This document shows, one piece after another, positions 1 to 17,887 of a stretch of 20,216 nucleotides of DNA; position 1 is the first letter of the stretch, and each line of letters begins with the position of its first letter. The stretch is from a virus. The notes below the pieces were generated by a model. It was not told the origin of the DNA, ran no database searches, and saw nothing but the letters and a program-made list of their open reading frames with translations. Location: positions 1 to 20,216 of IMG/VR virus record IMGVR_UViG_3300031234_000117, one strand, 5' to 3'. The translations under genes and the position numbers were made by a program.

Positions 1-1069
1 TCGGTACGCCGAATGTGGCGGCGAGGCTTTGCGGCGCACCGGTCGTGATGTATTGATCCTCCGCGAGCGCCGGGGCGGCCGTGTCGGTGCCCGCGAGCCA
101 CACGGCGTTGCGGCTGGTGAAGCCTGAGCCCGCCGTGACCGTGGCAGGGATCGCGCCCGATTGAATATCGGCGCAAAATCCCATCATGTGCACGGGCACG
201 GTCGGCAGGCTGATGAGCCCCGAGTTGATCGAGGTGACGCTGCTGTTGGTCGCGATCGTGAACGCGGAGAAGCCGGCGAAGCTGCCCCAGACGGCACCCA
301 CGGGCGAGAAATTCTGCGCATACACGTTGATGATCACGGCGGAGTAGGAGTTGGAAGCGGTGATCGTCGCTGAGCCGCCGATCGCGTTCAAACAGTAGTA
401 AAACGCGAGCGATTGATAGGCCGATGAGTTGTACGCGACTTTGAGGCTCGTGGTCGTCGTCGCGCTGAGCCCTCCCGGCCAGGTGACGACGTTCGAGCCG
501 TTGACAAAGGTCGCGTACACCTGCTGGGTCGCAGAGAGCTGCATCTCGTAGGTGCCGGAGGCGTATGCCCAGTTGCCGGTGAGCAAAATGCTCGACGCCG
601 AGACCGTGCCGCCGGTGGTGTAGCTGCCGCCCGTCGATAAGTTCACCGTCACGGTCCAGGCGCTCGTCACGCCGCCGATCGCGGTCACCTGACCGATATT
701 GCCATCAAGTCCCGTGATACCACCCGCCGCAGTGAAGTAGAGGTATTGCCCCACCGCAAAGGGGTTACTCGCAGCGGCGCTATTGAAGGTGACTAAGGTC
801 GAGGAGCCCGCCACCGCCGCCGTGATGCTCGCGGCGGTCGGGATCGTGGTCGCGGTGTAGGCGACGAAGGTAAACTGGCTTCCAGCGTACACATAGGTGT
901 TGCCGAGGTTATCGGATACGCTGAGGTCACTCAAATAAATGAGGTTGAGCTGCACCACCACATCGATCCGATCCCCGGTGTTGACGGTAAGCGCAGAATT
1001 GCACGCGAGCGAGCTAGAACCGCTTGTCGTCGTGGCAACCGCAAAACCGTTGTAGGTGACGGAGGCCAT
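1..1069 (-). CDS. Beta-rich phage tail/virion surface protein, 3' end cut by window edge
   Basis: The reading frame is open from the ATG at 1069 to the window edge, giving about 356 residues without a stop; the C-terminus is missing. The start overlaps the stop of the upstream gene by one base (TGATG), so translation is probably coupled. The N-terminus (MASVTYNGFAVATTTSG) leads into a beta-sandwich-like stretch with VSDNLGNTYV near residue 52, a pattern frequent in secreted or virion Ig-like domains. Residues of about 80-155 form a second Gly/Ser/Thr-rich beta region (FAVGQYLYFTAAGG, IGQVTAIGG) of the type often found in phage tail proteins. Further on VTAGSGFTSR resembles the C-terminal domains of such proteins. 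No catalytic motif is visible. Being last after the tailspike and the glycosidase-like protein, it is probably another tail-associated, host-contact protein. The role is inference from composition and position. Confidence 0.75.
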   Translation of the reverse strand, partial: MASVTYNGFAVATTTSGSSSLACNSALTVNTGDRIDVVVQLNLIYLSDLSVSDNLGNTYVYAGSQFTFVAYTATTIPTAASITAAVAGSSTLVTFNSAAASNPFAVGQYLYFTAAGGITGLDGNIGQVTAIGGVTSAWTVTVNLSTGGSYTTGGTVSASSILLTGNWAYASGTYEMQLSATQQVYATFVNGSNVVTWPGGLSATTTTSLKVAYNSSAYQSLAFYYCLNAIGGSATITASNSYSAVIINVYAQNFSPVGAVWGSFAGFSAFTIATNSSVTSINSGLISLPTVPVHMMGFCADIQSGAIPATVTAGSGFTSRNAVWLAGTDTAAPALAEDQYITTGAPQSLAATFGVP

Positions 1070-3831
1070 CAGGTAAAGACCAGCGTCGTGCTAGATCCTG
1101 CGGTCCAGTGCGCTTGCGCCGTCCCATTGCCCAGCACTAGCAAATTGGAGCCGTAGACCAAGGGCACATTCACCCCTGCCGTAGTGCCATTCGCGACGCT
1201 AAGCCCCGTTTGCAGCACCGTGTTGCCGTTCTGTGAGTTCGCGACCTGCACATTGGTCGTCACGGCGCCCGCTGTGACCGTATTAATCGCAAAGCCATAC
1301 GTGCCACCGCCGGGATTCGTACAGTTGATGATGAAGCCGACGTAGTAGGCGGCTCCGGTCGGTGAGCCGAATAGATTGCCGCTCGAGGGCATGCCGGGCC
1401 ATGTGCCGCCATTCGAATCGCAGTAATTGCCGCCCTGGATCGTATAGGGGCCTGCACCGGGCGCGCCCACCACATTGCGATTCCAAGAGATGCCACCCGA
1501 CACCATGAACTGCTGCAACGCCGCGAGCACCGGCACATTGGTGTTGTCGATCAAATTCGCGTAGGAGTTCGTGAAGTCCAATCCGATCGCATTATTAGTC
1601 ATCGGGTTCGCGGCGTGCGCCACACCCCCGGTGCTCCAGAAAGTCAGCGTCGAGCCTGCATTCAAGAGCGCGTTCTCGTAGGTCGCGGTGGGCGCCTGCA
1701 TCCCCGGATCAACCACCGCGAGCGAAAGATTCGTGATTCCCGTGTAGGCGCTATTCGTCCACTCGCCCACATTCGCTTCGTACTCGCCCGCGCTCTGGCC
1801 ATAATAAAAGGCGACCGCTGAGCGATTCTCGCAACCGCTCGACCACGCCTGCGTCGGTGCGGTCACGGCGGTAGCCGCTTCAATCTGCGCGATCGTCATG
1901 GCAGAGGTCAGCGCGGGCGTCGCATAAGGCGCGTTGAACAGCCACTGCACATCGGCGGACGGGGTGCCGCCTAGCGTGCTGATATAGGCATTGAACGGCG
2001 CCATCACGGTTTGTGAAGTCTTGGTCTGCCAGGCGAACACGTTTTGAATGCTGGTGCCCCACAGACTGCCCCAGAAAGCGCGCCCCGCATTCGCAATGGC
2101 GTGCATCCGGTAAGCCATGTAGAGCCAAGGCTCCGTGTATCCATAGAAAGTCGTCAGGTACTGCACATACATCATGCGATAGGCGTAGTTTCCGGAGTTC
2201 CAGATTTCGTTCGCAATCTCTTGTATAAGTTTCGTCCCAGCCGCCCATGAAGGATAAGCATTGCGCGCCGCTTGCCAGAGTGTCCAAAGATCATTGGTGA
2301 AACTACCGCAGGCGTAGTTTGAGCCGTCCTCCAAGAACGGCGTATTCATGAACATGCTGGTGTTAGAGGCTATGCACAGCGCAATCTGCCACTCCATGGG
2401 CACGCCATCGCCGCCGTAGCTAAAAGTCGCCGAAGTCGCCGCATTGACCAAGGGCTGCGTAAAAGTCGCTGTCCACTGTCCCGAGATATTGGCGATTGTC
2501 GCAATCACCCAGCCGATGCCGTTGTTCATGACATTGCCGGAGAGCCCCATGGCCCACGTGCCAGCGCCCAAACTCCAACTGCTGATGACAGCGCTAGTGG
2601 CCCCCGCCCCAGGGGTCGCCGTGAACGTCCCGGTTTGATGCCCGGTACCCATCCCTTGAGGCGAGCCGGGATTTATTTGGAAATTGGCAGGACTGGTGCG
2701 ATTCGAATGCGTGGTGAGTTTGCTGTTCCACCAATTGCCATTGAGCCATTCGGTGCTAATCGAGCCAAACTGCGAATAGTGCTGTGCGGTGGGCGTGAAA
2801 ATAATCGCGGGGTTGGGCGAGCCGTTACCGAGTACGATCTGCTCAATCACATTCGGATTCCCCGTATAGCCGCCAGGGATGTAGGCATACATGTTTGTAA
2901 TGCCGCCCGTTGAGCCAGCCCACGTAAAGCCAAAGTCATCCGTGATGTTGTAGAGAGCAAACGTCGTATAGGTGGTTGTGCCGTTGCCATACACAATGTT
3001 GCCGATAGAGCACGAATCCGCCGCTGTCACCGTGCCCGTGCCGATATAGCCGCACATGAAGGGCATCGTGAAGGTCAACCCCGCAGTCGAGCCCGCAAGC
3101 GTGGTGGTGATAGGAGCGCCGCCGATCGCGGTGAGCGTAAAGCTAGTCGAAGTCGCCGCACTGATCGTGTAGAAGCTCGGGTTTGTGTAGCCGACAATCG
3201 GCGTGCCCGTCGCGGTGCCTGAGACCATGATAGTCCAACCGATAGCGGGCAGCGTCGAGGAGGCGCAAGAAAACTCACCGCTGGTGCCGGCGATCGCAAC
3301 ACTTGCGAGGTTAGCATTGAAACAAGACGGCACATTTGTACCGCCGGCCCATAGAATCCAGGTGCCGTCCGCAGTCGGCCAGCCGGAAGCACCGACCGTC
3401 GTGTTGGCGGAGGTCGAGCCCCAAGTGCCCTCACGCACCCGATTCGCCATGTAGGGCAGATTCTCATAATCGCTCGCGCCTACGCCGCCCGCAGGGATCA
3501 GCACGCCGATGGGGTTGACATACGCGCCCGCGGCGGCCGATACCGTCATCGTGAAGGCGAGCATGAAGGTCGAGCCGATCTGATCTTGGACCTTGATCGT
3601 GAAGGTGTACGGGCCGGCCGCAGTCGGCGTGCCGGACAGCACCGGGCCTGTAAGCGTCAACCCGGTCGGCAAGGTGCCTGAGGCGAGCGACCAGGTATAG
3701 GGTGGCACACCCCCGATCGCGCCGAAGTCAAACGAATAGGCCACACCCACCTGGCCCGCGGGCAACGGCGAGGTCGAGACGATGGTGAGCGTCTGCAGGG
3801 CGTAGGCGGGGATGAGCTGGTAGCGTCGCAT
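1069..3831 (-). CDS. Tail-associated protein: Ig-like domain plus glycoside-hydrolase-like core
   Basis: I chose the ATG at 3831 (920 residues), two bases after the tailspike stop; a GTG at 3864 would add 11 residues and overlap that gene by 32 bases. Residues of about 12-98 look like a putative Ig (He_PIG) domain: LPAGQVGVAYSFDF, GVPPYTWSLASGTLPTGL, LSGTPTAAGPYTFTIKVQD. After Gly/Ser/Thr-rich beta segments, residues of about 470-760 contain QEIANEIWN (Asn541-Glu542), which resembles the Asn-Glu acid/base motif of clan GH-A glycoside hydrolases, followed by helices rich in aromatic residues and an AWQT segment. Downstream, GEYEANVGEW (Glu683, Glu685, Glu690) could supply the nucleophile. The last 150 residues are beta-rich and could bind carbohydrate. 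Lying directly after the tailspike, it is plausibly a virion enzyme that binds or cuts a host surface glycan. No conventional phage-anchor domain is seen at the N-terminus. The glycosidase assignment is inferred from a few motifs only. Confidence 0.8.
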   Translation of the reverse strand: MRRYQLIPAYALQTLTIVSTSPLPAGQVGVAYSFDFGAIGGVPPYTWSLASGTLPTGLTLTGPVLSGTPTAAGPYTFTIKVQDQIGSTFMLAFTMTVSAAAGAYVNPIGVLIPAGGVGASDYENLPYMANRVREGTWGSTSANTTVGASGWPTADGTWILWAGGTNVPSCFNANLASVAIAGTSGEFSCASSTLPAIGWTIMVSGTATGTPIVGYTNPSFYTISAATSTSFTLTAIGGAPITTTLAGSTAGLTFTMPFMCGYIGTGTVTAADSCSIGNIVYGNGTTTYTTFALYNITDDFGFTWAGSTGGITNMYAYIPGGYTGNPNVIEQIVLGNGSPNPAIIFTPTAQHYSQFGSISTEWLNGNWWNSKLTTHSNRTSPANFQINPGSPQGMGTGHQTGTFTATPGAGATSAVISSWSLGAGTWAMGLSGNVMNNGIGWVIATIANISGQWTATFTQPLVNAATSATFSYGGDGVPMEWQIALCIASNTSMFMNTPFLEDGSNYACGSFTNDLWTLWQAARNAYPSWAAGTKLIQEIANEIWNSGNYAYRMMYVQYLTTFYGYTEPWLYMAYRMHAIANAGRAFWGSLWGTSIQNVFAWQTKTSQTVMAPFNAYISTLGGTPSADVQWLFNAPYATPALTSAMTIAQIEAATAVTAPTQAWSSGCENRSAVAFYYGQSAGEYEANVGEWTNSAYTGITNLSLAVVDPGMQAPTATYENALLNAGSTLTFWSTGGVAHAANPMTNNAIGLDFTNSYANLIDNTNVPVLAALQQFMVSGGISWNRNVVGAPGAGPYTIQGGNYCDSNGGTWPGMPSSGNLFGSPTGAAYYVGFIINCTNPGGGTYGFAINTVTAGAVTTNVQVANSQNGNTVLQTGLSVANGTTAGVNVPLVYGSNLLVLGNGTAQAHWTAGSSTTLVFT

Positions 3832-6844: not shown

Positions 6845-7030
6845 TTAGTAACTTTCCGGGTCATACTCGCTATCGGCGTTGTCTAGTATGGCATTTTTTG
6901 TTTTTTCCCAGGAGATGGCGGTATTAAGAGCCTTGCAGCGCATGTCGAAGGGCTGGTCCACGCTGTCCTCAAGGAGCTTCTTGAGCGCGGACTCAATATC
7001 CTTGTTCGGGTCGTATTTCTTCGCCGTCAC
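6845..7030 (-). CDS. Small hypothetical phage protein, 61 residues
   Basis: The GTG at 7030 overlaps the stop of the upstream ejection-protein gene by four bases (GTGA), the same coupling used at several other junctions in this operon. The product is short, charged and mainly helical: DPNKDIESALKKLLEDSV, then FDMRCKALNTAISWEKTKNA and an acidic end (DNADSEYDPESY). The stop (TAA) is embedded in the ribosome binding site of the next gene. No known family is recognised. The length and tight fit between two overlapping neighbours favour a real gene over a chance frame. Confidence 0.68.
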   Translation of the reverse strand: MTAKKYDPNKDIESALKKLLEDSVDQPFDMRCKALNTAISWEKTKNAILDNADSEYDPESY

Positions 7031-8607
7031 TGGCCGACTCCGTTCTCATCGACGCTCCCCGGCTGCGCGAGTGCACCCGCCGCGGCCGCCTTCTTGCCGC
7101 CGATCGGCGTGTAAGGGCCGCCCTTCTTAAGCGCACGGTTTTGCAGCGCCTTCAATACCGGCTGCGAATACATCGCGGGTCCGCCCATCACGGCCGCCGC
7201 GCCTAGCGGGTGGTGTGCGGCAATCCCCGCGCCGCCCAAGATGGCCTCCATGGTGGCGATGCGTCCGGCGCTTCCGGAGTCAGGCTCGGTGTTGCCGATG
7301 ACCTTCTCGACCGCCTCGGCGCCCTTCTCACCGTGTGCGGTACCGCTCGCAAAGCGCTGCTTGTCCTTAGACTTATCGCGCGCGCGGATGGCTTGGAGTT
7401 TTTGCGCCGGGGTGTAGGTGCCGCTTTGCTTGGTCGAGTAGAGGGAGGCTTTCGAGGAGGTTTTGAACTTGGCATAGCCCTTGTCGATGCCGTCGAGTTC
7501 GCCCGCGAGTTTCGGGTTTTCGCGCTTGAGCATCGCTTTCATATCCGCGCTCACCTGCTTCAAAATCTCCGCGACGCTGCGCTCCTGGTAGCCGCCGCTC
7601 TTCAATTTGTCGGCCTCAGTGCGAAGTGTCTCCTGAATTTCTTTGATCTTCGCGCCGGGAGCAAGACCAGTCTTTTGGTCGAACTTCGCGATCACCTTGT
7701 TATCGATGATGTTCTTGACCACCTTGGCGTAAGCAGGCTCTAAGCCCTTCGCTGCGGTCTGCTTGGTGAGGTCGAGAAAGCGGCGAAAGGTGACCCCTGA
7801 TGGGTCGGCAGAATTCAAGTTCCCGCCCATGTTGGTGAGCACCCGATCGTACGCCTTGCCCATCTCCGCTTCCGTGTGCGCGATGGCATCTCGCCCCGTG
7901 CGATTCGCGGGGATCTCTTTGCCGCCCGCATCCTTGATCGCCTCATTCAACTCGGCGCGATTCCACTGCTCGGTGGTCTTGCCGCGCGCCCGCTTGATGG
8001 CATCTCCTAGGAGCGGAATCGAGGTTGCGCGCTGCTCCAAGGCACTCGCAATCTTTCCGCCGCGCATGCCGGGCGTGGTGACAACGCCCTTGCTCGCAAG
8101 GTCTCGAATGGTGGGCGACACGGGTTTTTGCAACGCCTTGACAGCCGGGCCGACGACATCTCCCAGCACACCCGCTGCCTTGCCCGCCGCGCCACCGATC
8201 ATGCCCTGACCGATGCCGCTGCCAACCTGTTGAGGCGTGACGCTGGGCAAGCCCTGCACTGCGCCCGTAATAGAGTCAATTGGGTGCTGCAAAAAACCAC
8301 CGATGCGACCGGCCGCGGCGCTCGCCGCATCAATCGGGTGCTGCACCACGTTCGCGATGCCCTCGGCTCCAGATACAACGCCGCTCGGGATCGCGCCCAC
8401 CATGTTCATCGCGTCCTGCACGGGCCCGTGCTCGCTCGCGTCCGCCGCGGCGTTGGCTTGGCCGATCGCGTCCGGTTTGGTCACCGCTGGCCTGCTCACA
8501 CCTGATATATCAGAGACGTTTTTGTTTTGGGGGGTGGCAGCATATTTCGACCACGGCCCATCGGCCGCTGCGGCTTGGTACTTGAGCCACGGCAGTTCAT
8601 CCGCCAC
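7027..8607 (-). CDS. Putative internal virion / DNA ejection protein (third of three)
   Basis: 526 residues from GTG 8607, overlapping the previous gene by 11 bases; an ATG at 8600 is out of frame. The N-terminus holds a duplicated aromatic-basic motif (PWLKYQ at 6-11, PWSKYA at 18-23), common at the start of podovirus ejection proteins. Residues of about 65-155 are Gly/Ala-rich and amphipathic, with two QHPID copies (89-93, 107-111), and could interact with membranes. Residues of about 175-230 (GVVTTPGMRGGKIASALEQ, then SIPLLGDAI, then RAELNEAI) match a recurring phage segment of the LTPGQ..GG...EDKLTSxPxxGxxI type. The rest is helical and charged. The position after two other helical proteins and before the tail proteins parallels P22 gp16 or T7 gp16. 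No lysozyme or transglycosylase motif is visible. Ejection function is inferred from order and composition. Confidence 0.78.
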   Translation of the reverse strand: MADELPWLKYQAAAADGPWSKYAATPQNKNVSDISGVSRPAVTKPDAIGQANAAADASEHGPVQDAMNMVGAIPSGVVSGAEGIANVVQHPIDAASAAAGRIGGFLQHPIDSITGAVQGLPSVTPQQVGSGIGQGMIGGAAGKAAGVLGDVVGPAVKALQKPVSPTIRDLASKGVVTTPGMRGGKIASALEQRATSIPLLGDAIKRARGKTTEQWNRAELNEAIKDAGGKEIPANRTGRDAIAHTEAEMGKAYDRVLTNMGGNLNSADPSGVTFRRFLDLTKQTAAKGLEPAYAKVVKNIIDNKVIAKFDQKTGLAPGAKIKEIQETLRTEADKLKSGGYQERSVAEILKQVSADMKAMLKRENPKLAGELDGIDKGYAKFKTSSKASLYSTKQSGTYTPAQKLQAIRARDKSKDKQRFASGTAHGEKGAEAVEKVIGNTEPDSGSAGRIATMEAILGGAGIAAHHPLGAAAVMGGPAMYSQPVLKALQNRALKKGGPYTPIGGKKAAAAGALAQPGSVDENGVGQ

Positions 8608-9979
8608 CGACGCGCTCCCAGGATGAGGCTTGCGCGGGGTCGCCGCCCTTGAACTTGTAGCCGCCCTCCACCGTGCCTATCGCCGGGCCAGATCCAGTAC
8701 CCTCACCAGTCGCTGTTCCGGGAATGGCCGAGCCCGACACTTCTCCGATCGTTCGGTCGGCCGCCGATCGCGCGCCAGACGCCTCCTCCTTCACCGCTTT
8801 GACCAAGGTGCGAACGTTCTCATCGGACAGTTTGGCATCGAACAGTTTATGGATGTGCTCGCGCTTGTCCTTGTCAGTGCCGCCGCGCGCCGCCAACTGG
8901 TCATAGGCGTTGTTGAGCGCTTGGAGTTTCGTCCTCAAGGTAAGAAGTTGCGGGTTGTTGATCTCGGTCTCTCCCGCCTGTATCAGCCCATTGAGCGTCA
9001 TCGATTGTCCGCGAGGCAAGTTCTTCGACGCCGCGAGCACCTGATCCCCGAAACTATCGAGTTCGTTCGCCGCGAGCGACACCTTGCCGATCTGAGTGCC
9101 CGCGGTGCGCGCGCCGGCAGTCTCGGCGGTGAGTTTGAGTTTCCCGGACACGATATCATCCGCGATCTGATCCGCGCTCTTGCCGGGGTTTTTCTCATAC
9201 AGCCCGTCGATCGTCGCCTTGATCTGAGACTGAGCGCGCAGCCCGGCGGGCAGATTCACGTTCCGAGTCGCCATCGCCGCGAGAAGGTCTTTCTGCTCGG
9301 GTGTGTATTGGCCTTTGCCAGAATCCGCCAGGCGTTTTTGGATCTCCGAGTCGATATTCCTGCTTTGGATGCTCAATTGCTCGCGCTTCTCATCCATCCC
9401 ATAGATCTGCTTGCGCACTTCGGCAATGTCCTTGGAACGGGCGCGGGCAAGGAGCGCCTGATCGTCCCACTTCGCGGCCTTCGTTTGCAGCTCGGCCAAG
9501 ATCCCGTTGATGGAGAGCTTCTTGTTGTTGAGCGTGTCGATGTAATCCTCTTGCTGCTCCTTGTGCTTGTCAACCGCCTTGGTGAAGTCCGCCTGGTATT
9601 TTTTCCACTCCTCGTCCGCCTTTTGTTGGTTGCCCTCCATGTAGCCCTTGAGCGCGCCATTGAGCGAGTGCGAAACACCGAACCAGTTGCCGCGCGAGAC
9701 CGAGCCCGCAATGAGCGCCATCGCCACTAAAGCGCCGCTGAATTTTTGGTACTCAGCGGCGTCCACCAAGGGCTTATTGGGCGCCTGAGGGAGATCGGCC
9801 GGCCCTGGTGGTTTAACTGATTCTGCGTCGTGGTAAGCGTGCTGTAGCGCCTCCTGGGTCGGCGCCAGGTCCGCCTGCTTCGCCGCGAGCGTCGCGCCCT
9901 CGTCCCCGCCCGGCATGCCAGCCACCTGCTTGACCAGGGCGGCGCGGTCAGCACCCAACTGATCGCCGGGTACGCTCAC
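8597..9979 (-). CDS. Putative internal virion / DNA ejection protein (second of three)
   Basis: 460 residues from GTG 9979, overlapping the preceding stop as GTGA. Residues of about 81-103 form a hydrophobic stretch (SGALVAMALIAGSVS). Residues of about 115-220 are a long, highly charged helical region likely to form coiled coil (EEWKKYQADFTKAVDKHKEQ, then KSKDIAEVRKQ-like heptads). Residues of about 240-400 (NLPAGLRAQSQIKATIDGLY ... LAANELDSFGDQVLAASKNL ... NAYDQLAARGG) resemble a helical domain seen in many podovirus internal proteins. The C-terminus ends in YKFKGGDPAQASSWERV, a G-Y-x-F-K-G-G-D-P type tail also recurrent in such proteins. The gene lies between two other candidate ejection proteins. 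It is most likely packed in the head and delivered with the DNA. That role is inferred. Confidence 0.8.
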   Translation of the reverse strand: MSVPGDQLGADRAALVKQVAGMPGGDEGATLAAKQADLAPTQEALQHAYHDAESVKPPGPADLPQAPNKPLVDAAEYQKFSGALVAMALIAGSVSRGNWFGVSHSLNGALKGYMEGNQQKADEEWKKYQADFTKAVDKHKEQQEDYIDTLNNKKLSINGILAELQTKAAKWDDQALLARARSKDIAEVRKQIYGMDEKREQLSIQSRNIDSEIQKRLADSGKGQYTPEQKDLLAAMATRNVNLPAGLRAQSQIKATIDGLYEKNPGKSADQIADDIVSGKLKLTAETAGARTAGTQIGKVSLAANELDSFGDQVLAASKNLPRGQSMTLNGLIQAGETEINNPQLLTLRTKLQALNNAYDQLAARGGTDKDKREHIHKLFDAKLSDENVRTLVKAVKEEASGARSAADRTIGEVSGSAIPGTATGEGTGSGPAIGTVEGGYKFKGGDPAQASSWERVGGG

Positions 9980-11385
9980 GGGCCGCCTGGGATGCCGGTG
10001 CTACCGGGGATGCGCATTGAGCCGCCGGATTGCAGTAGGAGCGCCATCTCGGCGGTCTGCGCGGCGAGTGCCTGCGCCTCCTCGCTTTGCTGGAGCTGCG
10101 TGTTGCCAATGCTGGTAAGCACCTGATCGCCGCCCGAAAGCTCCGAGAGCGCGTTCGAGACGTTTTGCTGCTGCGCCTGCGCGTAGAGGTTTTGCCGCTG
10201 CACGTTGGCGTTTTGCGTCATCTGCGCGATTTGCTGCTGCACGATGCCTGAATTCTGGTTGCCCTCACCGCTCGAGGCGGCCGCCTGCATGATCGCCTCG
10301 GTTTGCTGCTGGATCTGCTGGTTGATCGTGGCGTCGATGCTCGCCTTTTGGCTGCCCCATTCAGGTGTCGCGGTACCGCCCGATTGCACTACCGAGGTCG
10401 CGCCCTTGACGGCCTGTTGCGCCGCTGCTGAGGCGGTCGCGTCCGCGCCGGGCAGTTTTGGCGTGGTCAAGGCATTCTTGAGCGAGAGACCTAGGAGGCC
10501 CGCAGTCGCGGCGTTTTTAGGGTTCGAGAGCCAAGAGCCGATGCCGCCGCCTTGCCCCGCACCCGGCGCCGGGGCGTTCGGGTCGATGCCGGTGTCCGAG
10601 GGGTTCACTGCCGCATTCGATAGGTCAAAGTCCCCGCCCGCGCCGCCCGGGTCGTTCAAGCCCCCGGTGGGGTCTATCCCGAGGGCCTGCATGGTCGAGG
10701 GGTCCAAGCTCTGCAAGGACGGGGCGGTGTCGTCCGCCGACAGAAATTGGGTCGGCGTGGTGCTCGCCAAAGAACCTGAGAAATCCGCGGGCTGAGCGCT
10801 TGCCCCCGGCACGCCAGAACCTCCCGCGCCCGGCGCGCCCGCCGCCACCGCAGAGGGCAGCACCATGCCGCCCAAGGCGTCGGGCAGGCTCGAGGTTCCG
10901 GCCGCGGCCGGTCCTGCGGCTTGGCCGAGTACCGTCTGTTCGGGGAGCATGGCCCCAGCGCCCGCGTCACCGACGGCTCCCGGGATGGCGCCACCGCTCC
11001 CTAGCGCTGCGGTGTCCGCCCCCGCGCCGCCCAACGCACTGTCTGCCCCTAGCGCTGCGGTTCCGGTGTCGGCGAGTGCTCCGGTGCCGGCGCCTGTGAA
11101 GCCCACATCACCTAACGTGCCAACGCCTGCGTCCGCGATCCCGGTGTCCGCGATGCCGCCCAGCGCCGCCGACGTGCCCGCATCCGCCGCCAAGGCTCCC
11201 GCACCGATATCGGCCCCCGCATCGGCCGCGAGCGCGCCAGCTCCGACATCCGCAGCAGCGACCCCGGCGCCTGCGTCCGCAGCGGCTCCCACGCCCGCAT
11301 CGAGGGCGGCTGAGTCCCCGACCGCATCGACAATCGCGCCGATAATGTCGGTTATCGGACACTCGAAAAAATGCAGCCGTATCAC
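9976..11385 (-). CDS. Putative internal virion protein with Ala/Gly-rich N-terminus (first of three)
   Basis: 469 residues from GTG 11385, overlapping the acetyltransferase stop as GTGA. A short start (MIRLHFFECPITDIIGAIVD) leads into a low-complexity Ala/Gly/Asp region at about residues 24-146, including an exact ten-residue repeat GAGALAADAG at 48-57 and 61-70. A Pro/Asp-rich linker follows. Residues of about 283-310 (GSWLSNPKNAATAGLLGLSL) are weakly hydrophobic. Residues of about 350-447 are rich in Gln and helical (INQQIQQQTEAIMQAAAS, QQQIAQMTQNANVQRQNLYA), typical of the small internal core proteins of podoviruses (T7 gp14-like or P22 gp7-like by position). The C-terminus is Gly/Pro-rich. 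It probably acts with the next two products in DNA ejection; this is inference from order and composition. Confidence 0.75.
   Translation of the reverse strand: MIRLHFFECPITDIIGAIVDAVGDSAALDAGVGAAADAGAGVAAADVGAGALAADAGADIGAGALAADAGTSAALGGIADTGIADAGVGTLGDVGFTGAGTGALADTGTAALGADSALGGAGADTAALGSGGAIPGAVGDAGAGAMLPEQTVLGQAAGPAAAGTSSLPDALGGMVLPSAVAAGAPGAGGSGVPGASAQPADFSGSLASTTPTQFLSADDTAPSLQSLDPSTMQALGIDPTGGLNDPGGAGGDFDLSNAAVNPSDTGIDPNAPAPGAGQGGGIGSWLSNPKNAATAGLLGLSLKNALTTPKLPGADATASAAAQQAVKGATSVVQSGGTATPEWGSQKASIDATINQQIQQQTEAIMQAAASSGEGNQNSGIVQQQIAQMTQNANVQRQNLYAQAQQQNVSNALSELSGGDQVLTSIGNTQLQQSEEAQALAAQTAEMALLLQSGGSMRIPGSTGIPGGP
10948..11316 (-). repeat. Low-complexity Ala/Gly/Asp coding repeat
   Basis: This segment encodes about residues 24-146 of the 469-residue protein. 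It is a degenerate series of short units built from GAGAL, AADAG, ADTG and GGA, with one exact ten-residue duplication (GAGALAADAG). At DNA level CCTAGCGCTGCGGT occurs twice on the plus strand, near 10998 and 11046. Such tracts can lengthen or shorten by slippage, and they also generate many spurious antisense frames here. Confidence 0.7.
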
Positions 11386-11855
11386 AACTTTTTCTCCATC
11401 ACGATCTCATCGTCGACGTAGCCACGCGACTTCAAGATCATGTAAAAGCGGCTCCCCGTGCGCACAAACCAGCCCATGTAGCGCACGCCCTTGGCCCGTA
11501 AGTGCGCCTCGGCGGCATCCAGCAAGCGAAAGGCGGTGCGCCCCAAGCCTGCCTCGTCCTTTACATAGATCATGTCCCCATGGCCCGTGTGCACGGTCTG
11601 GTGATGGAGCGAGAAGTTGTCGAAGAAAATCGCGTAGCCGACGAGCGCGCCGTCGCGCCTCGCCGTGATGCAGGTGACCATGTCCATCTCATCGAGCTTT
11701 TTGTACTTCTTGAACGCCGGATCGATTTCAAGCTCACTGATGTAACTCTCGGTGCGCACCCAGTTATCCCGCAGGAGCGGGAGTAATTCCTGGCACAGCG
11801 CGTCCGAGTAGCGCTCGCGCTGAATGCTGATCATGGGTTTTAATTGCGCGCTCAC
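11382..11855 (-). CDS. GNAT-family N-acetyltransferase-like protein
   Basis: I chose GTG 11855, which overlaps the upstream stop as GTGA like its neighbours (157 residues). An ATG at 11834 would give 150 residues, and a longer frame from 11912 would intrude 61 bases into the previous gene. Around residues 61-78 TCITARRDGALVGYAIFF is the typical GNAT strand pair. Residues 93-127 (GDMIYVKDEAGLGRTAFRLL, then AEAHLRAKGVRYMGW) fit the acetyl-CoA-binding strand-loop-helix, with Gly103 and Gly105 in the loop but without the usual Arg/Gln before them. The C-terminus (YMILKSRGYVDDEIVMEKKL) matches the last GNAT strands. Similar small acetyltransferases are encoded in structural operons of other phages, with unknown substrate. 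It could modify a virion or host protein; the substrate cannot be predicted, and activity is uncertain given the altered loop. Confidence 0.82.
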   Translation of the reverse strand: MSAQLKPMISIQRERYSDALCQELLPLLRDNWVRTESYISELEIDPAFKKYKKLDEMDMVTCITARRDGALVGYAIFFDNFSLHHQTVHTGHGDMIYVKDEAGLGRTAFRLLDAAEAHLRAKGVRYMGWFVRTGSRFYMILKSRGYVDDEIVMEKKL

Positions 11856-12265
11856 ATCAACCCCAACTGCTGGTACTCGTAATCGTGCATTTCCTGGTGC
11901 GCTTGCATCCAATCGTAGAACTGATCGGCTTGGGCGAAATCCACCACCGACAAATCCGGCGCGACCGCCCCTTGGCCGGCCAAGAGACTATACGACGCAT
12001 TGTGAATGGCCGCATGCACGTTCAGCCAATCTTGAAGCGAGGCGGGCTGTTTGACGCCCCTTTGCCCCTGCGCGCCCTGTTGCATGGCCTGCACCCAAGC
12101 ATCCTCGGCCAATTGGCTGTCGAGCCCGAAGGTCGAGAAGGGTACGTTGTACTTGGCACTCAACGCGTTCGCGGTCTCCAAGTGCACGAAGCGGTGCACG
12201 AGCAGGAAATTGCGCAAGCCCTGCGTATCGTTAAAGCCGGTGGTCGCGGACAAGTCGATGTTCAT
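11852..12265 (-). CDS. Phage protein with three HxxxH helical motifs
   Basis: 137 residues from ATG 12265, overlapping the preceding stop as ATGA. The protein appears helical and carries three copies of one motif: FLLVHRFVH (residues 20-28), WLNVHAAIH (80-88) and WMQAHQEMH (119-127), each of the form aromatic-Leu/Met-x-x-His-x3-His. The His pairs are spaced i, i+4 on a helix face, which could bind a metal ion or stack together in a bundle. The segments between them are Gln/Ala/Gly-rich loops. There is no signal peptide or membrane helix. It sits between the nozzle candidate and the acetyltransferase, so a virion or assembly role is possible. I know no precise function; small proteins with similar His-containing helices may occur in other phage structural operons. 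Confidence 0.8.
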   Translation of the reverse strand: MNIDLSATTGFNDTQGLRNFLLVHRFVHLETANALSAKYNVPFSTFGLDSQLAEDAWVQAMQQGAQGQRGVKQPASLQDWLNVHAAIHNASYSLLAGQGAVAPDLSVVDFAQADQFYDWMQAHQEMHDYEYQQLGLM

Positions 12266-14247
12266 GCGAGTTTATCCCGGGGGCCTGAGGAGCCACGTAG
12301 CGCCAACATGTCAATTTGCGACATGTCGGTCGAGCCCGTGACGGTGAGCCCCAAGTACTGGGTGCCGCCGTTGTTCACGGAGGACACGTTGAAGTGGTAC
12401 CCAGAGGTCACGCTCATCAGCGGGTTCAGAGTCGCCGGAGTCGTCGCGTTCGCGGTCTCCGTGTCGATGTAGAGCGCAACGCCCGAAGGCGTGAGGCCCG
12501 TCCACACCCCGGCGACCGCCGCGTTCAGGGACTGTTTGTCGTGCGTGGGCGCCCCGCCGTCCCAGAGTTTGGTTTTCAAAAGCCAGGCCGCAAGCGCTGC
12601 AGCGGAGTCCATCATCCGGTAGAGCGAGTTCCCGGCCCAAGCGTACATCGTCGCGACGCCGCCGACCGAAATAGACACCATCGACTGATAGGGACCCGAC
12701 GTCAACCCCGAGTACACCCACCAGCGGCCGCGAAAGTAGAGCGCGAAAATGCCGCGCGTCGCCCCGTAGCCCGTGACGGTGTCGGTGAAGGAGAAAAGCA
12801 TCGCGGCGCACAGCTCCCCTTGCACCAGCACCTGCCCGCCCCAGGCAAGAGGCATGGAGAAGCCCGGGTTCACGGCGACAATGTTCTGAATGAGCCCCGA
12901 GACCTTGTCGGAAATTTTCTCAGGCGTCGCACCCGCGAGCAGATAGAACCCGGAGGCGTGATAGAAAACGATTGCGCGGTAGTAGGCGAAAATCGAGGTC
13001 GGAGTCGAGGTGCCGACGCTCGCAGTGACGTTGATGCGCGAGAAGAAGGTCACGCCGGCCGACACCGTGACGTTCGACAAGGCATCGATCGAGGTGTCGC
13101 CGAAAATATACAGGTAATTGTTCGCCGCGTAGAGTGCCGTGATGTTGTTGTGCAGGTAGGAATCGGGGATGAAAAATGAGCCCCCGACGCCGCCAAAGGA
13201 GTAGTAGGAATTGATGTCGGTGAAGTACACCGTGCGCGAGAGCCCAATCCACACCCGCCCCGAATAGACCGCAATCGAAGTGCCGCCGATCACCCCCGAG
13301 GAGGCGGCTATCCAGGTGTCAACCACGCTTGAGCCGGTCTGGTCCTGAACTGCGGTGTCGGTGCCGTAGCCCGTGCCCCGGGTGAGCACCGCCATCGAAA
13401 TCGCTTGAATGTGGTCGGTGAAAGTCGCGCCGGTGCCCGCGCCTGTGGTGGTGATGGTCGAGCCGGTCGGCCCGGTGGCGACGAAGGTGCTTGTGGTCGG
13501 ACCCGGGTAGGAGCCCCCGGCAGCCAACGTGATACCGGTTACCGGGCCGGTCGCGCCGCCCCCGGAGATCGAGGCGACGATGATCTGTGCCGGGGTCACC
13601 GGCGAGCCGTCGCTCAAAAAGATCGAGTCCCCGACCGCGTAGCCTGACCCGGCGTTCACCAGGGTGACATTGACCACCTGGTAGCTCGCCTGGAAGGTCG
13701 CCCCGGTGCCCAAGGGCGCGAGCGTGACGATGCGAAGGCTCGTGCCCCCCGCCACTTGCGCGGCGCTGCCCTCCAGAGTCACGTTCGCGATGGCCTTGTT
13801 TTGGGGGGTGAGCGTGTTCGGGGCCGTTAAATTCCAGTCCCAATAGCCCGTCGGGTCGATGATTAGAAGCCCTTGGTTCGAGTATTGCGCGGCCGCCGTG
13901 AGCCCGGAGGTAAGCCCCGAGATGATTTTCGTCACCGCGAAGCTCGAGAGGTTCACCACGTAACCATTACCCGAAAACGCCCACACCGAGAACTCGTAAT
14001 CGGTCCCGAGCACGTTGAAGTTCTGCACATAGGAGGGGGCGCCGGTCTCCGCCGAAACGGTGGCGAGGGCGGCTGACGGGGCCTTGACCGGCACGCACTT
14101 GCCCGGGGCGATCGGAATCGCGTTCTCGCACCAGTAAAACTCATTGTCGTTGATGGCCTCGCGCGCGGCCAAGTTGTTCATGCCCTCAAACTCACGCAGG
14201 ATCCACTCCGGGTTCGCCCCGCCGACGTTCGCGGTTTTAGGTGGCAT
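12262..14247 (-). CDS. Large tail nozzle / tail hub candidate (P22 gp10- or T7 gp12-like by position)
   Basis: 661 residues from ATG 14247, overlapping the adaptor gene by 11 bases. The N-terminus (EGMNNLAAREAINDNEFYWC, then ENAIPIAPGKCVPVKA) is typical of podovirus tail hub or packaged-DNA stabilisation proteins, in which many short beta segments follow. Blade-like motifs include GLLIIDPTGYWDW (126-138), SIAVYSGRVWIG (324-335), YFTDINSYYSFGG (341-353), ALYAANNYLYIFG (371-383), RAIVFYHASGFYLLAG (424-439) and FRGRWWVYSG (505-514), resembling a beta-propeller. Residues of about 155-315 look inserted between these: a Gly/Thr/Ser-rich repeat region with GSGYAVGD and GTGYGTD. By position after the adaptor, and by size, it should form the lower part of the short tail that closes the portal channel. 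The assignment is by architecture and order; exact family membership was not tested. Confidence 0.8.
   Translation of the reverse strand: MPPKTANVGGANPEWILREFEGMNNLAAREAINDNEFYWCENAIPIAPGKCVPVKAPSAALATVSAETGAPSYVQNFNVLGTDYEFSVWAFSGNGYVVNLSSFAVTKIISGLTSGLTAAAQYSNQGLLIIDPTGYWDWNLTAPNTLTPQNKAIANVTLEGSAAQVAGGTSLRIVTLAPLGTGATFQASYQVVNVTLVNAGSGYAVGDSIFLSDGSPVTPAQIIVASISGGGATGPVTGITLAAGGSYPGPTTSTFVATGPTGSTITTTGAGTGATFTDHIQAISMAVLTRGTGYGTDTAVQDQTGSSVVDTWIAASSGVIGGTSIAVYSGRVWIGLSRTVYFTDINSYYSFGGVGGSFFIPDSYLHNNITALYAANNYLYIFGDTSIDALSNVTVSAGVTFFSRINVTASVGTSTPTSIFAYYRAIVFYHASGFYLLAGATPEKISDKVSGLIQNIVAVNPGFSMPLAWGGQVLVQGELCAAMLFSFTDTVTGYGATRGIFALYFRGRWWVYSGLTSGPYQSMVSISVGGVATMYAWAGNSLYRMMDSAAALAAWLLKTKLWDGGAPTHDKQSLNAAVAGVWTGLTPSGVALYIDTETANATTPATLNPLMSVTSGYHFNVSSVNNGGTQYLGLTVTGSTDMSQIDMLALRGSSGPRDKLA
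13303..13785 (-). repeat. GSGY-type beta-repeat insert within the nozzle gene
   Basis: Encodes about residues 155-315 of the 661-residue protein. It holds Gly/Thr-rich beta units such as VTLVNAGSGYAVGDS, ITLAAGGSYPGP and AVLTRGTGYGTD. They resemble the two units inserted in the adjacent adaptor gene. The flanking sequence, ending near NTLTPQNK and resuming near GGTSIAVYSGRVWIG, reads as one continuous propeller-like domain, so the block looks inserted. Boundaries are approximate. Confidence 0.55.
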
Positions 14248-15106
14248 AGATCGAGCCTATGCGGCGGGTGTAGGAGGCGCAGACCTCGAGCAGGCGCGTC
14301 GCATACTGGCGGCGAAACCCTTCAGCCTCGCCGAAGTTCTGGGCGTTGTTTTTGGCAAGGTAGGCGGCAAAGAACTTGATCGGATCCTGATTGCGAAGCG
14401 GAATGGCGTCCTGGGTGGTCGTATCCCCGGTGACGAAGGGCGTCGGCAAAATCACCGAGTCGAGCTCGAGCCCGTATGTTTGGTCCGGGGTGACGCCGAT
14501 GAAAAGGCTCTGTTCGCCATAGAACGCCATCGCGTCGGGCCGTCGCTGGTAGGTCGCCGCCGTGTAGAGCCGGTAGCGCGCCGAGAAGAGGCTAAAAGGG
14601 TACCAGTCCAAGGAGTAACGCTGCGTGCCCCAAAGCACGTGCACGCCCAAGATGTCGAAGGTCGAGATGTTGATCACGCCGACCTGCACGCTCGCGCCCG
14701 CCCCGGTCGAATCCGTGACCGTGGCGGTGGGGGCACTCGTGTAGCCGCTGCCGTAACTCGTGAAGACAATCGTGTTGAGCGCACCACCGCTTTGAGTCAC
14801 GACAGCGGCGGCACCAGTGCCCCCGCCCCCAGAAAAGGCTACCGTGGGAGCGGAATAACCGGACCCCGGGGTAAGAATGCTTGCGCCCGCCACCGCGCCA
14901 AATTGGTACTGCTCCACGCCTTGGGAGAGATAGGACTGCTGAAGCGTGCGAAGGCAGCCCGAGTCCATGACGAGTTGCTTGCGCGCCTCGTTGATGTAGC
15001 CATCGATCTGCGCGATGGACCAGCGGTTATTGTTCGGGTCGTGGAGGGCGTCGAGCACCTGATATTCATAGGTGCCGGGTGTCGTTGAGGGGCCAAGGGT
15101 GGTCAC
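14237..15106 (-). CDS. Head-tail adaptor (connector) protein with beta-repeat insert
   Basis: 289 residues from GTG 15106, just after an in-frame TGA, and 18 bases after the previous stop. Residues of about 14-65 form a helical region (YQVLDALHDPNNNRWSIAQI, then INEARKQLVMDSGCLRTLQQ) like the adaptor proteins (P22 gp4 / T7 gp11 class) that bind beneath the portal. Residues of about 74-145 are a beta insert with two copies of a GSGYxxAPT unit (81-88 GSGYSAPT, 119-126 YGSGYTSAP), the first followed by GGGGTGAAA. The adaptor-like fold then resumes (LGVHVLWGTQRYSLDWYPFS, GVTPDQTYGLELDSVILP) and ends in helices (IKFFAAYLAKNNAQNFGEAE, QYATRLLEVCASYTRRIG). Its place between capsid and nozzle genes supports the adaptor role. 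It should form the dodecameric ring that joins portal to tail. Specific homology was not tested. Confidence 0.82.
   Translation of the reverse strand: MTTLGPSTTPGTYEYQVLDALHDPNNNRWSIAQIDGYINEARKQLVMDSGCLRTLQQSYLSQGVEQYQFGAVAGASILTPGSGYSAPTVAFSGGGGTGAAAVVTQSGGALNTIVFTSYGSGYTSAPTATVTDSTGAGASVQVGVINISTFDILGVHVLWGTQRYSLDWYPFSLFSARYRLYTAATYQRRPDAMAFYGEQSLFIGVTPDQTYGLELDSVILPTPFVTGDTTTQDAIPLRNQDPIKFFAAYLAKNNAQNFGEAEGFRRQYATRLLEVCASYTRRIGSIYAT
14672..14887 (-). repeat. Two-copy GSGYxxAPT repeat insert within the adaptor gene
   Basis: Encodes about residues 74-145 of the adaptor. Copy one is LTPGSGYSAPTVAFSGGGG and copy two is FTSYGSGYTSAPTATVTD, about 38 residues apart. Such units recur in phage virion proteins and are likely surface-exposed beta structure. 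The segment interrupts an otherwise helical and strand-rich adaptor. Confidence 0.6.
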
Positions 15107-15470: not shown

Positions 15471-15489
15471 AAAAAAATCAGAAGCTGAT
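15471..15489 (-). terminator. Weak intrinsic-terminator-like hairpin at the end of the 455-residue gene
   Basis: On the minus strand ATCAG-CTT-CTGAT forms a perfect five-base-pair hairpin with a three-base loop, directly followed by six T residues. The stop codon of the 455-residue gene lies in the 3' arm. The short, AT-containing stem makes it a weak terminator at best. Partial termination here would raise expression of head genes over the tail genes downstream; that is inference. Confidence 0.35.
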
Positions 15490-16845
15490 GAACTTCACCA
15501 CATCGGACGCGCCGCCGAACACCGGGGTTTGCACCGCCACCGTGCCCACCGTGCCCGCCGCCAACTGCGTGCCCAGCGCGATCGTGGCGGCTGCCTGGAT
15601 GTTGACGCCCCCGAAGTTGTTGCCCGAGAGCGTGGTGACGCCGGTCGTCGCCGCTACGACTAAGGGCGGGAAAATCGGGTTCGAGATCCTCTGCGTGAAG
15701 GAGACCGACGTGTTCGCGGCCGGGGTGGCGACCGTGACGCCGCCTTGCCACACCGCGTAAGCGCCGGTGTAGGTGACGCCGGGCGTGGTGTTGGTGATCG
15801 AGGTCACCGTCCAGTTCATGATCGCAGTCGCCGTGGGCGCGGGGTTTGAGGTGCCGCCGTAGGTAAAAGTCGGCACGGCGGTCAACGCAGTGCCGTAGTA
15901 GGCCGGCCACATGGCAAGGACCGACCCAGAACCGGTGCCCGCGCCCAAGCCGGCGGTGCCGGTGGCGCCGAAGAGCCACCCCAACACCGCGCCGCCGCCG
16001 GTGACATCGCCCGGTTGCGGGACCGCGACAATGCCGGGCAGGCCCATCAGGCCCGCGCCCTGGTCAATGACGGTGATCGCGTTGATGATGCCGCCCGAGA
16101 TCGTGCACACCGCGGTCGGCAAGATATAGGGCTGCTGGCCTTGGTTCGCCGGGGGCGAGAACACGAGGATCGGGGGTTTGGTCCAAAGCGTGCCGCCGGA
16201 AGCGGTGATTCCGCCAGCGGCCGATCCTTGCCCGAAGCCGCCCAAGGACTGGCCGGCGCCGCTGTTCGCGCTCGCGAAGTTGCCGTTGAACACCGTGCCG
16301 GAGAAACTGATGGTCGAGTTGATAGCCCCGCCGACAATCGCGTTCCAAAGCCCGCCGCCCGCCGACGGGGTGATGGTGAAAATCGCGTTGCCGGTCGCGA
16401 CGATGCCGGACTGAATGGTGATCGCGGCGCCCAAGGCGGTCGCCGGCTGAGTCGAGTCGCCCGGGCCTTGCGCGTAGCCGTAGAAGCCGTTCGTGCCGCC
16501 GGAGCCCGCGTTCGTGATGACCGCTCCCACGGGGCAGCCGGTTGAGTTGACCACGCGGTAGTTGGTGCCGTCGGATGAAATCGTCGTCTGCGCGTAGATC
16601 GAGACCTGCACGCACTGCCAATTGTTGGTGCCCTGATCGTATTGCTGAAGGTTCGTGTACTGACCCAACTGCAGGAGGAACTGACCGCTGAGCGGGTTAT
16701 TCGTGCCGATCTGCGGCAAGAGTACCCCACCAAAAGCGCCCACTACCCCTTGGCCTGCGGGCACCATCCAGTAAGAGCCCGCCGGCATCCCGACGTTCAT
16801 CATCGGGGGGACGTTTGCGCCGCCGGAGATTTTATTGAAACCCAT
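15478..16845 (-). CDS. Beta-rich virion protein encoded directly after the capsid gene
   Basis: 455 residues from ATG 16845, with AGGAG at 16855-16859 nine bases upstream. Residues of about 20-82 (MPAGSYWMVPAGQGVVGAFG, then GQFLLQLGQYTNLQQYDQGT and NNWQCVQ) form an N-terminal domain with a QYTxLQxYDxxTxxW pattern seen in structural proteins of some podoviruses. The rest is Gly/Ala/Thr/Ser-rich beta sequence without Lys-rich or catalytic segments, including ITNAGSGGTNGFYG and a stretch (ITVIDQGAGLMGLPGIV) that recalls the repeat units in the adaptor and nozzle. The C-terminus (ASDVVKFISF) is compact. There is no signal peptide. The separate, strong ribosome site and the position next to the capsid gene suggest high expression; a head decoration or fibre protein is one possibility. 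The function is not known. Confidence 0.8.
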   Translation of the reverse strand: MGFNKISGGANVPPMMNVGMPAGSYWMVPAGQGVVGAFGGVLLPQIGTNNPLSGQFLLQLGQYTNLQQYDQGTNNWQCVQVSIYAQTTISSDGTNYRVVNSTGCPVGAVITNAGSGGTNGFYGYAQGPGDSTQPATALGAAITIQSGIVATGNAIFTITPSAGGGLWNAIVGGAINSTISFSGTVFNGNFASANSGAGQSLGGFGQGSAAGGITASGGTLWTKPPILVFSPPANQGQQPYILPTAVCTISGGIINAITVIDQGAGLMGLPGIVAVPQPGDVTGGGAVLGWLFGATGTAGLGAGTGSGSVLAMWPAYYGTALTAVPTFTYGGTSNPAPTATAIMNWTVTSITNTTPGVTYTGAYAVWQGGVTVATPAANTSVSFTQRISNPIFPPLVVAATTGVTTLSGNNFGGVNIQAAATIALGTQLAAGTVGTVAVQTPVFGGASDVVKFISF

Positions 16846-16870: not shown

Positions 16871-17887
16871 TTAAATTGCCACGAACGTGAACCCCGTGAC
16901 CACGGTGCACACCTTCGGTTTCGCGAGCACCAACTCCAACAAGGATAGCACCGCGCCGATGAAGCCGATTTGGTTGTTCGAGAGCGTCGACTCAAAGCCG
17001 GTGAAGGCAAAGGCCGCGCGCTCGTGGATGTAGAACGCGAGATACCCCGTGTTCAACAAATAGAGCGTGCCCTCAGGCACGTACGGGTCCATATAGATCG
17101 GCACCCCGGAGACCATGCAGGCGCGGAACGCCGAGCGCGCGCCCCAGGGCTCATCATCGAACCCCTTCTCAGGGGTCACCACATAGGATTCGTTCGGGAT
17201 GTAGTCGTTTTGCAGCGTTTGCCAGGTCGCCGGTCCCATGATGCCGAAGGTGGGCAGCTCGCCGCCGTACTTGAAGGTGCCGGTGATGTACTGCGCCACG
17301 AGCGCACGCGTCGGGTTCGTCGAGCCCGCCGCATAGCGCTTAGCCTTCAACCACGGGTTGGTGGTGCGCGACTGGTTGCCGTAAAGAGTCGAGTTCGTAC
17401 CATCATCGACCGCCGCCGGGAGCCCGATCACCTGCGTCTGGTTCGACACGTTGTTAAGGAGCGCGGTTGCGACCCCATCGCAGTAGACGTTGCCCGCATC
17501 GTTCATGCGCGCGGCCAGGAGCGGAATGATTTCGTGCGCGTCCTGAATCAAGCCCTCGAACCCAAGGTACGGGATCGGGATCACCGCGCCTTTTAAATTG
17601 AATTCGAGGTTCGTCACCGCCGCCTGTACCGCCGGCTGGTTGAACGAGCCGTCGTAGCCGACCCACTGCAAGTTCACGAACTGCGACCCTTGCGCCGGGA
17701 TCGTCACCGAGGAGACGCCGCCCGAGGCGGGCTGAGAGTTCGCAATGAGCGCGGCGGTTAAGGGGCTCGTGTTGTACAACTGTACAACTAACTTTTTCAC
17801 GAATCCGCGGCGCACTACATACTGTAGCTCACCTCCCAAAGATCCAACGCCGCCGGCGGGGACAATTCCTGTGCCTAAAATCGGCAT
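16871..17887 (-). CDS. Major capsid protein
   Basis: 338 residues from ATG 17887, with TAGGAG nine bases upstream. Order (portal, small proteins, coiled-coil scaffold, this gene, adaptor) and size identify it as the major capsid protein, presumably with the HK97 fold common to all tailed phages. An extended N-terminus (GGELQYVVRRGFVKKLVVQL) is followed by strands (GVSSVTIPAQGSQFVNLQWV), a helical region (LIQDAHEIIPLLAARMNDAG), a central part with YITGTFKYGGELPTFGIMGP, and a late VSGVPIYMDPYVPEG segment typical of capsid proteins near the A-domain, then LYLLNTGYLAFYIHERAAFA. There is no protease gene beside it and no long N-terminal delta-like domain, fitting a separate scaffold. It forms the icosahedral shell. 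The family within the HK97 group cannot be fixed by eye. Confidence 0.85.
   Translation of the reverse strand: MPILGTGIVPAGGVGSLGGELQYVVRRGFVKKLVVQLYNTSPLTAALIANSQPASGGVSSVTIPAQGSQFVNLQWVGYDGSFNQPAVQAAVTNLEFNLKGAVIPIPYLGFEGLIQDAHEIIPLLAARMNDAGNVYCDGVATALLNNVSNQTQVIGLPAAVDDGTNSTLYGNQSRTTNPWLKAKRYAAGSTNPTRALVAQYITGTFKYGGELPTFGIMGPATWQTLQNDYIPNESYVVTPEKGFDDEPWGARSAFRACMVSGVPIYMDPYVPEGTLYLLNTGYLAFYIHERAAFAFTGFESTLSNNQIGFIGAVLSLLELVLAKPKVCTVVTGFTFVAI

Follow-up and report, generated by a model that had tools for sequence, protein, structure and literature searches.

The window analysed here is an IMG/VR virus contig, taken at its full length of 20,216 bases, and its minus strand carries a gene, P0001, that encodes a protein of 920 amino acids (Table 1). 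The ATG of P0001 at position 3831 comes directly after the stop codon of a tailspike gene, and its own stop codon (1071-1069) overlaps the ATG of the gene that follows. By means of the major head protein of the window we have identified 59 loci of kin viruses, which probably come from peat or soil, judging from sample numbers. The N-terminal part of the tailspike, about 176 amino acids, is conserved at 43-50% in the kin viruses where it was found, and the remainder of the spike does not align. The P0001 gene is absent from all 26 kin records searched, several of which are fragments. A conserved spike N-terminus together with a P0001 gene that is missing in kin viruses is the pattern expected of a swappable host-recognition region.

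Table 1. Coordinates of P0001, its parts and its neighbours in the window
Feature	Position	Strand	Basis
GH-A-like tail-region protein P0001	1069..3831	minus	ORF list, ATG 3831, overlapping junctions
He_PIG Ig-like domain, residues 16-98	3538..3786	minus	PF05345, E 1.7e-11, scanned alone
Ser359, aligned to the near-invariant beta2 Arg (RFMDW) of the family	2755..2757	minus	alignment
Barrel half beta3-beta8 modelled with confidence, residues 475-735	1627..2409	minus	AlphaFold2 and HMM score
QEIANEIWN, residues 537-545, predicted acid/base Asn541-Glu542 after beta4	2197..2223	minus	model and alignment
Tyr636 (APY), conserved Tyr after beta6	1924..1926	minus	alignment
GEYEANVGEW, residues 682-691, Glu685 the predicted nucleophile after beta7 (family YEGG)	1759..1788	minus	model and alignment
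Tailspike, upstream of P0001	3833..6196	minus	pectate-lyase-like match just under cut-off
Downstream ORF of 356 aa or more, cut by the end of the record, without a family match	2..1069	minus	ORF and library scans
Major head protein	16871..17887	minus	phrog_9953, E 9.5e-22

Several other genes of these viruses deserve mention in their own right. In two kin loci (L186:10538-14350, plus strand, and L184:5651-9463, minus strand) a fibre-like protein of 1271 amino acids is encoded between a homologue of g6198 and the spike. It has a signal-peptide-like N-terminus and an S74-chaperone-like C-terminal region, as well as a hydrophobic stretch at the C-terminus with arginines behind it, which is unusual for a phage fibre. 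The structural gene block of the window contains a GNAT acetyltransferase (11382-11912, minus strand; phrog_1249, PF00583), and homologues with 26-70% identity occupy the same place in several kin viruses. For the protein encoded at 14237-15106 (minus strand), numerous weak hits to families of head-closure, baseplate and virion structural proteins fall on residues 40-150, which probably form a shared Ig-like or adhesion domain. Four large late genes on the minus strand (12262-14247, 15478-16845, 9976-11385 and 7027-8607) are 33-74% identical across kin viruses and have no significant function-bearing family match; the kin viruses with these genes are an under-described viral clade.

The first-pass annotation of this DNA had read P0001 as a tail protein with an Ig-like N-terminus and a glycosidase core of clan GH-A type, built around the motifs QEIANEIWN and GEYEANVGEW. 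Both motifs do lie at residues 537-545 and 682-691, with Glu542 and the three candidate nucleophiles Glu683, Glu685 and Glu690 at the positions it gave them. The Ig-like domain was also confirmed, since PF05345 matches residues 16-98 with 44.9 bits (cut-off 24 bits), a match that was missed when the whole low-complexity protein was scanned. P0001 does have an extreme bias towards Gly, Ala, Ser and Thr, which partly explains why searches with the whole protein of Pfam, PHROGs, NCBIfam and PDB sequences returned no homologue. No homologue came from tblastn of phages and plasmids or from peptide-pattern scans either. It took a degenerate DNA pattern encoding E..NE[VIM]WN, run against viral contigs, to reach any relatives. 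The viral loci listed for this pattern include about 57 long ORFs, most of which have a second conserved element, YE(G/A), located 120-330 residues downstream. In P0001 this element is Y684-E685, which places Glu685 143 residues after Glu542. A second DNA pattern did not reveal a closer relative among the matches examined, and no close homologue usable for a selection test was found; P0001 shares only 14-22% identity with the remaining aligned viral members.

At such low identity the relationship was assessed with a profile that represents 52 viral relatives and leaves P0001 out. The core of P0001 (residues 475-735) scores 36.6 bits against this profile with composition correction on, compared with 4.6 for the best of 199 shuffles and -12 for the reversed core. 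The flanks that do not contain the motif score as well, 15.0 bits for residues 475-535 and 11.4 bits for residues 546-735 (best of 200 shuffles of the latter segment, 5.2), so that the match consists of more than the motif used in the search. The score of the whole protein, on the other hand, is lost to bias under composition correction, whereas that of the core survives; we therefore relied on the core-only test rather than on the uncorrected whole-protein score of 91.8 bits (best shuffle 30.0). Thus, the core of P0001 has a significant profile match to a family that we name ExSNEVWN/YEGG after its two elements. The 1271-residue fibre-like protein of the kin viruses was considered as a further member at 65 bits, but its reversed sequence scores 47.8 and the motifs are missing, so that this match is compositional.

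The family extends well beyond viruses. Relatives are found in at least 583 bacterial genome stretches of one species-level genome set, distributed among Planctomycetota, Cyanobacteria, Armatimonadota, Proteobacteria and others. Two plasmid homologues that were inspected have genes for glycosyltransferase, acyltransferase, O-antigen ligase or polysaccharide export in their vicinity, and the loci of several viral relatives carry genes for tape measure, J-like tail protein, portal, tail sheath, head protease or terminase. For the family members tested there was no usable match to a relevant Pfam, NCBIfam or PHROGs model or PDB sequence, and the few library matches are scattered, fall on accessory domains or involve PHROGs of unknown function matched by a single member. 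None of the glycoside hydrolase models of Pfam and NCBIfam (GH51, GH79, GH5 and GH10 were considered) matches P0001 or its relatives. By sequence the family thus appears unmodelled in Pfam, NCBIfam and PHROGs, although it may still belong to a CAZy family, and we found no direct description of the motif or of TIM-barrel phage depolymerases in the literature. Two features of individual relatives were noted along the way. In one viral relative (L048, 1-3717) the GH-A region is followed, within one fused protein, by a PhoD-like phosphatase domain at the C-terminus (PF09423, E 5.3e-14), and in another (L070, 1-4848) both the relative and its neighbouring genes have signal-peptide-like N-termini, as do the relatives in L040 and L102.

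An AlphaFold2 model of P0001 made with 37 viral relatives has a whole-protein pLDDT of 53.7, and the Ig domain, the insertions and the C-terminus (about 30 over residues 780-920) are poorly modelled. The model does not confirm the beta-rich C-terminus described in the first-pass annotation. Residues 475-733, however, form alternating beta strands and alpha helices with pLDDT mostly 77-92. The strands beta3 (492-497), beta4 (535-539), beta5 (595-602), beta6 (630-634) and beta7 (680-683) are separated by helices; beta3 to beta8 are confident and beta1 less so. All six PDB matches from Foldseek at E<=0.001 are GH10 or GH53 enzymes. The 50 best VIA-align matches shown consist only of clan GH-A-type enzymes, including GH51, GH79, GH44, GH39, GH5, GH53 and GH164, with the GH51 structure 2y2w at the top (Z 19.8, rmsd 3.8 angstroms, 302 residues aligned). 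A canonical relative, L093, gives a full barrel with confidence (pLDDT 88.1, pTM 0.86) and resembles GH51 1pz3 even more closely (Z 24.2, rmsd 3.4, 302 aligned). Its model has strands between beta1 and beta2 that we read as an inserted beta-sandwich, and by analogy P0001 probably has this insertion too. A GH-A-like (beta/alpha)8 barrel, which the first-pass annotation had named as support for its reading, is therefore present in the predicted fold of P0001.

The model and the alignment together place Asn541-Glu542 just after beta4, Tyr636 after beta6 and Glu685 just after beta7, where a clan GH-A acid/base pair and nucleophile would be predicted. Only Glu685 of the three candidate nucleophiles takes this place; Glu683 and Glu690 do not. 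In a set of 85 aligned homologues, which are almost all cellular and include the viral reference, four positions are identical in 85 of 85: the beta2 Arg, the beta6 Tyr, the nucleophile Glu and the Tyr that precedes it. Both predicted catalytic glutamates are conserved, but since the NE motif helped to pick the loci, only the other positions count as independent evidence. P0001 departs from the family at one of them. The beta2 Arg, which lies in RFMDW, is also present in nearly all aligned viral relatives, while P0001 has Ser359 in this column of consensus Arg. In clan GH-A the beta2 Arg usually contacts the nucleophile, so that hydrolysis by P0001 may be weakened or altered and its full activity is uncertain. 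The Arg is a conserved trait of the family but does not define clan GH-A, some families of which lack it. On the alignment, P0001 without this Arg is a divergent relative of the ExSNEVWN/YEGG family and not a canonical member.

Comparison with known systems provides a working precedent for such a protein. Gp095 of Erwinia phage S6 has two N-terminal domains followed by GH5 and lies in a polymorphic region; its catalytic residues are predicted to be Glu570 and Glu689, and it has been verified experimentally to degrade a carboxymethylcellulose-type model substrate (PMC9544554). Cellulose is the first receptor of this phage (PMC9544554). P0001 resembles gp095 in its variable genomic region and in having an N-terminal domain ahead of a GH-A-type barrel, which in P0001 is predicted. 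In phage phiEaP8 a putative tail spike is directly followed by two glycoside hydrolase genes, one annotated as 'putative cellulase or glycoside hydrolase'. The family profile does not match their products, which by sequence are not members; in fold, however, the family model is matched by a phiEaP8 glycoside hydrolase (E 3.9e-4). The best fold match overall is to the GH51 alpha-L-arabinofuranosidases (1pz3, 2y2w); the catalytic pairs should sit on equivalent barrel strands, but identity is only 7-10% and there is no sequence match. The beta-sandwich-like insertion between beta1 and beta2 distinguishes the family model from GH51, and the beta2 Arg is missing in P0001. GH79 heparanases and beta-glucuronidases (5bwi, 7psh) tie as a fold match (Z up to 19.3), again with no sequence match, and this fold match does not point to a substrate for P0001. 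The beta-helix tailspike depolymerases share the proposed role, removal of surface polysaccharide, but are trimeric beta-helices, unlike the predicted barrel with a Glu pair in P0001; the pectate-lyase-like match at this locus belongs to the spike gene next door.

Taken with these comparisons, the results largely bear out the glycosidase reading of the first-pass annotation. We consider it likely, though well short of certain, that P0001 is a tail-region glycan-active protein that combines an Ig-like domain with a GH-A barrel and acts as a retaining glycosidase on host exopolysaccharide. The main competing view is that the barrel has become a glycan-binding pseudoenzyme: its cleft and glutamates persist, but having lost the beta2 Arg it would serve as a receptor-binding module that holds polysaccharide and hydrolyses it little, if at all. 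The replacement by Ser359 of an Arg kept throughout the mostly cellular homologues, the strong divergence of P0001 from the aligned viral members and its Ig-like N-terminus would all suit such a module. However, Asn541, Glu542, Tyr636 and Glu685 are all retained despite this divergence, and clan GH-A families without the Arg exist, so that we regard the loss of catalysis as rather unlikely. That the whole resemblance is a coincidence, with a chance NE motif in a low-complexity tail protein, has been largely refuted and is now very improbable: the Gly/Ala/Ser/Thr-rich composition and the vanishing of whole-protein scores under correction gave it some ground, but the corrected core score is far above its best shuffle, the motif-free flanks also score, and the fold matches GH-A throughout.

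A different question is whether the enzyme is part of the virion at all. P0001 could be a secreted or intracellular auxiliary metabolic enzyme that degrades environmental or host polysaccharide for carbon. An active, virus-encoded GH5 endomannanase is known from Stordalen peat viruses, with a proposed role in carbon breakdown rather than infection (PMC6786970). It belongs to clan GH-A, as P0001 is predicted to do, but it is a GH5 enzyme found through Pfam identifiers. The signal-peptide-like N-termini in some viral relatives also fit this explanation. P0001 itself has no obvious signal peptide by eye, is tightly joined to the tailspike and the next gene in a late block, and has relatives that share loci with the head and tail genes of various phages, all of which makes an auxiliary role improbable. 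From this gene order and the neighbours of the relatives we infer a location in the virion, and activity, substrate and virion attachment are likewise inferred. Membership of the sequence family, the fold prediction, the placing of the catalytic pair and the lack of the gene in the kin records searched are what the analysis shows directly. P0001 would most likely be a retaining glycosidase, its acid/base being Glu542 and its nucleophile Glu685, that cuts host exopolysaccharide and so lets the virion reach the cell surface; adsorption would be the task of the neighbouring spike. P0001 is best read as a swappable exopolysaccharide glycosidase that is probably borne on the virion.

A GH-A enzyme in a phage tail region is already known; what is new is a large family that no model in the libraries searched matches, together with the loss of the Arg in P0001. 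We speculate, with somewhat less than even confidence, that this is a large undescribed clan GH-A family of many bacterial phyla, partly encoded near exopolysaccharide genes and recruited time and again by phages as exopolysaccharide enzymes of the tail, of which P0001 is a variant without the beta2 Arg and so with altered chemistry or pure binding. A family of this kind, with its strongly conserved Glu pair, would escape CAZyme annotation in viromes and genomes. If its members do cut bacterial exopolysaccharide, they would form a class of phage depolymerase that is not built on the beta-helix, and they would give a function to hypothetical genes in bacterial polysaccharide loci.
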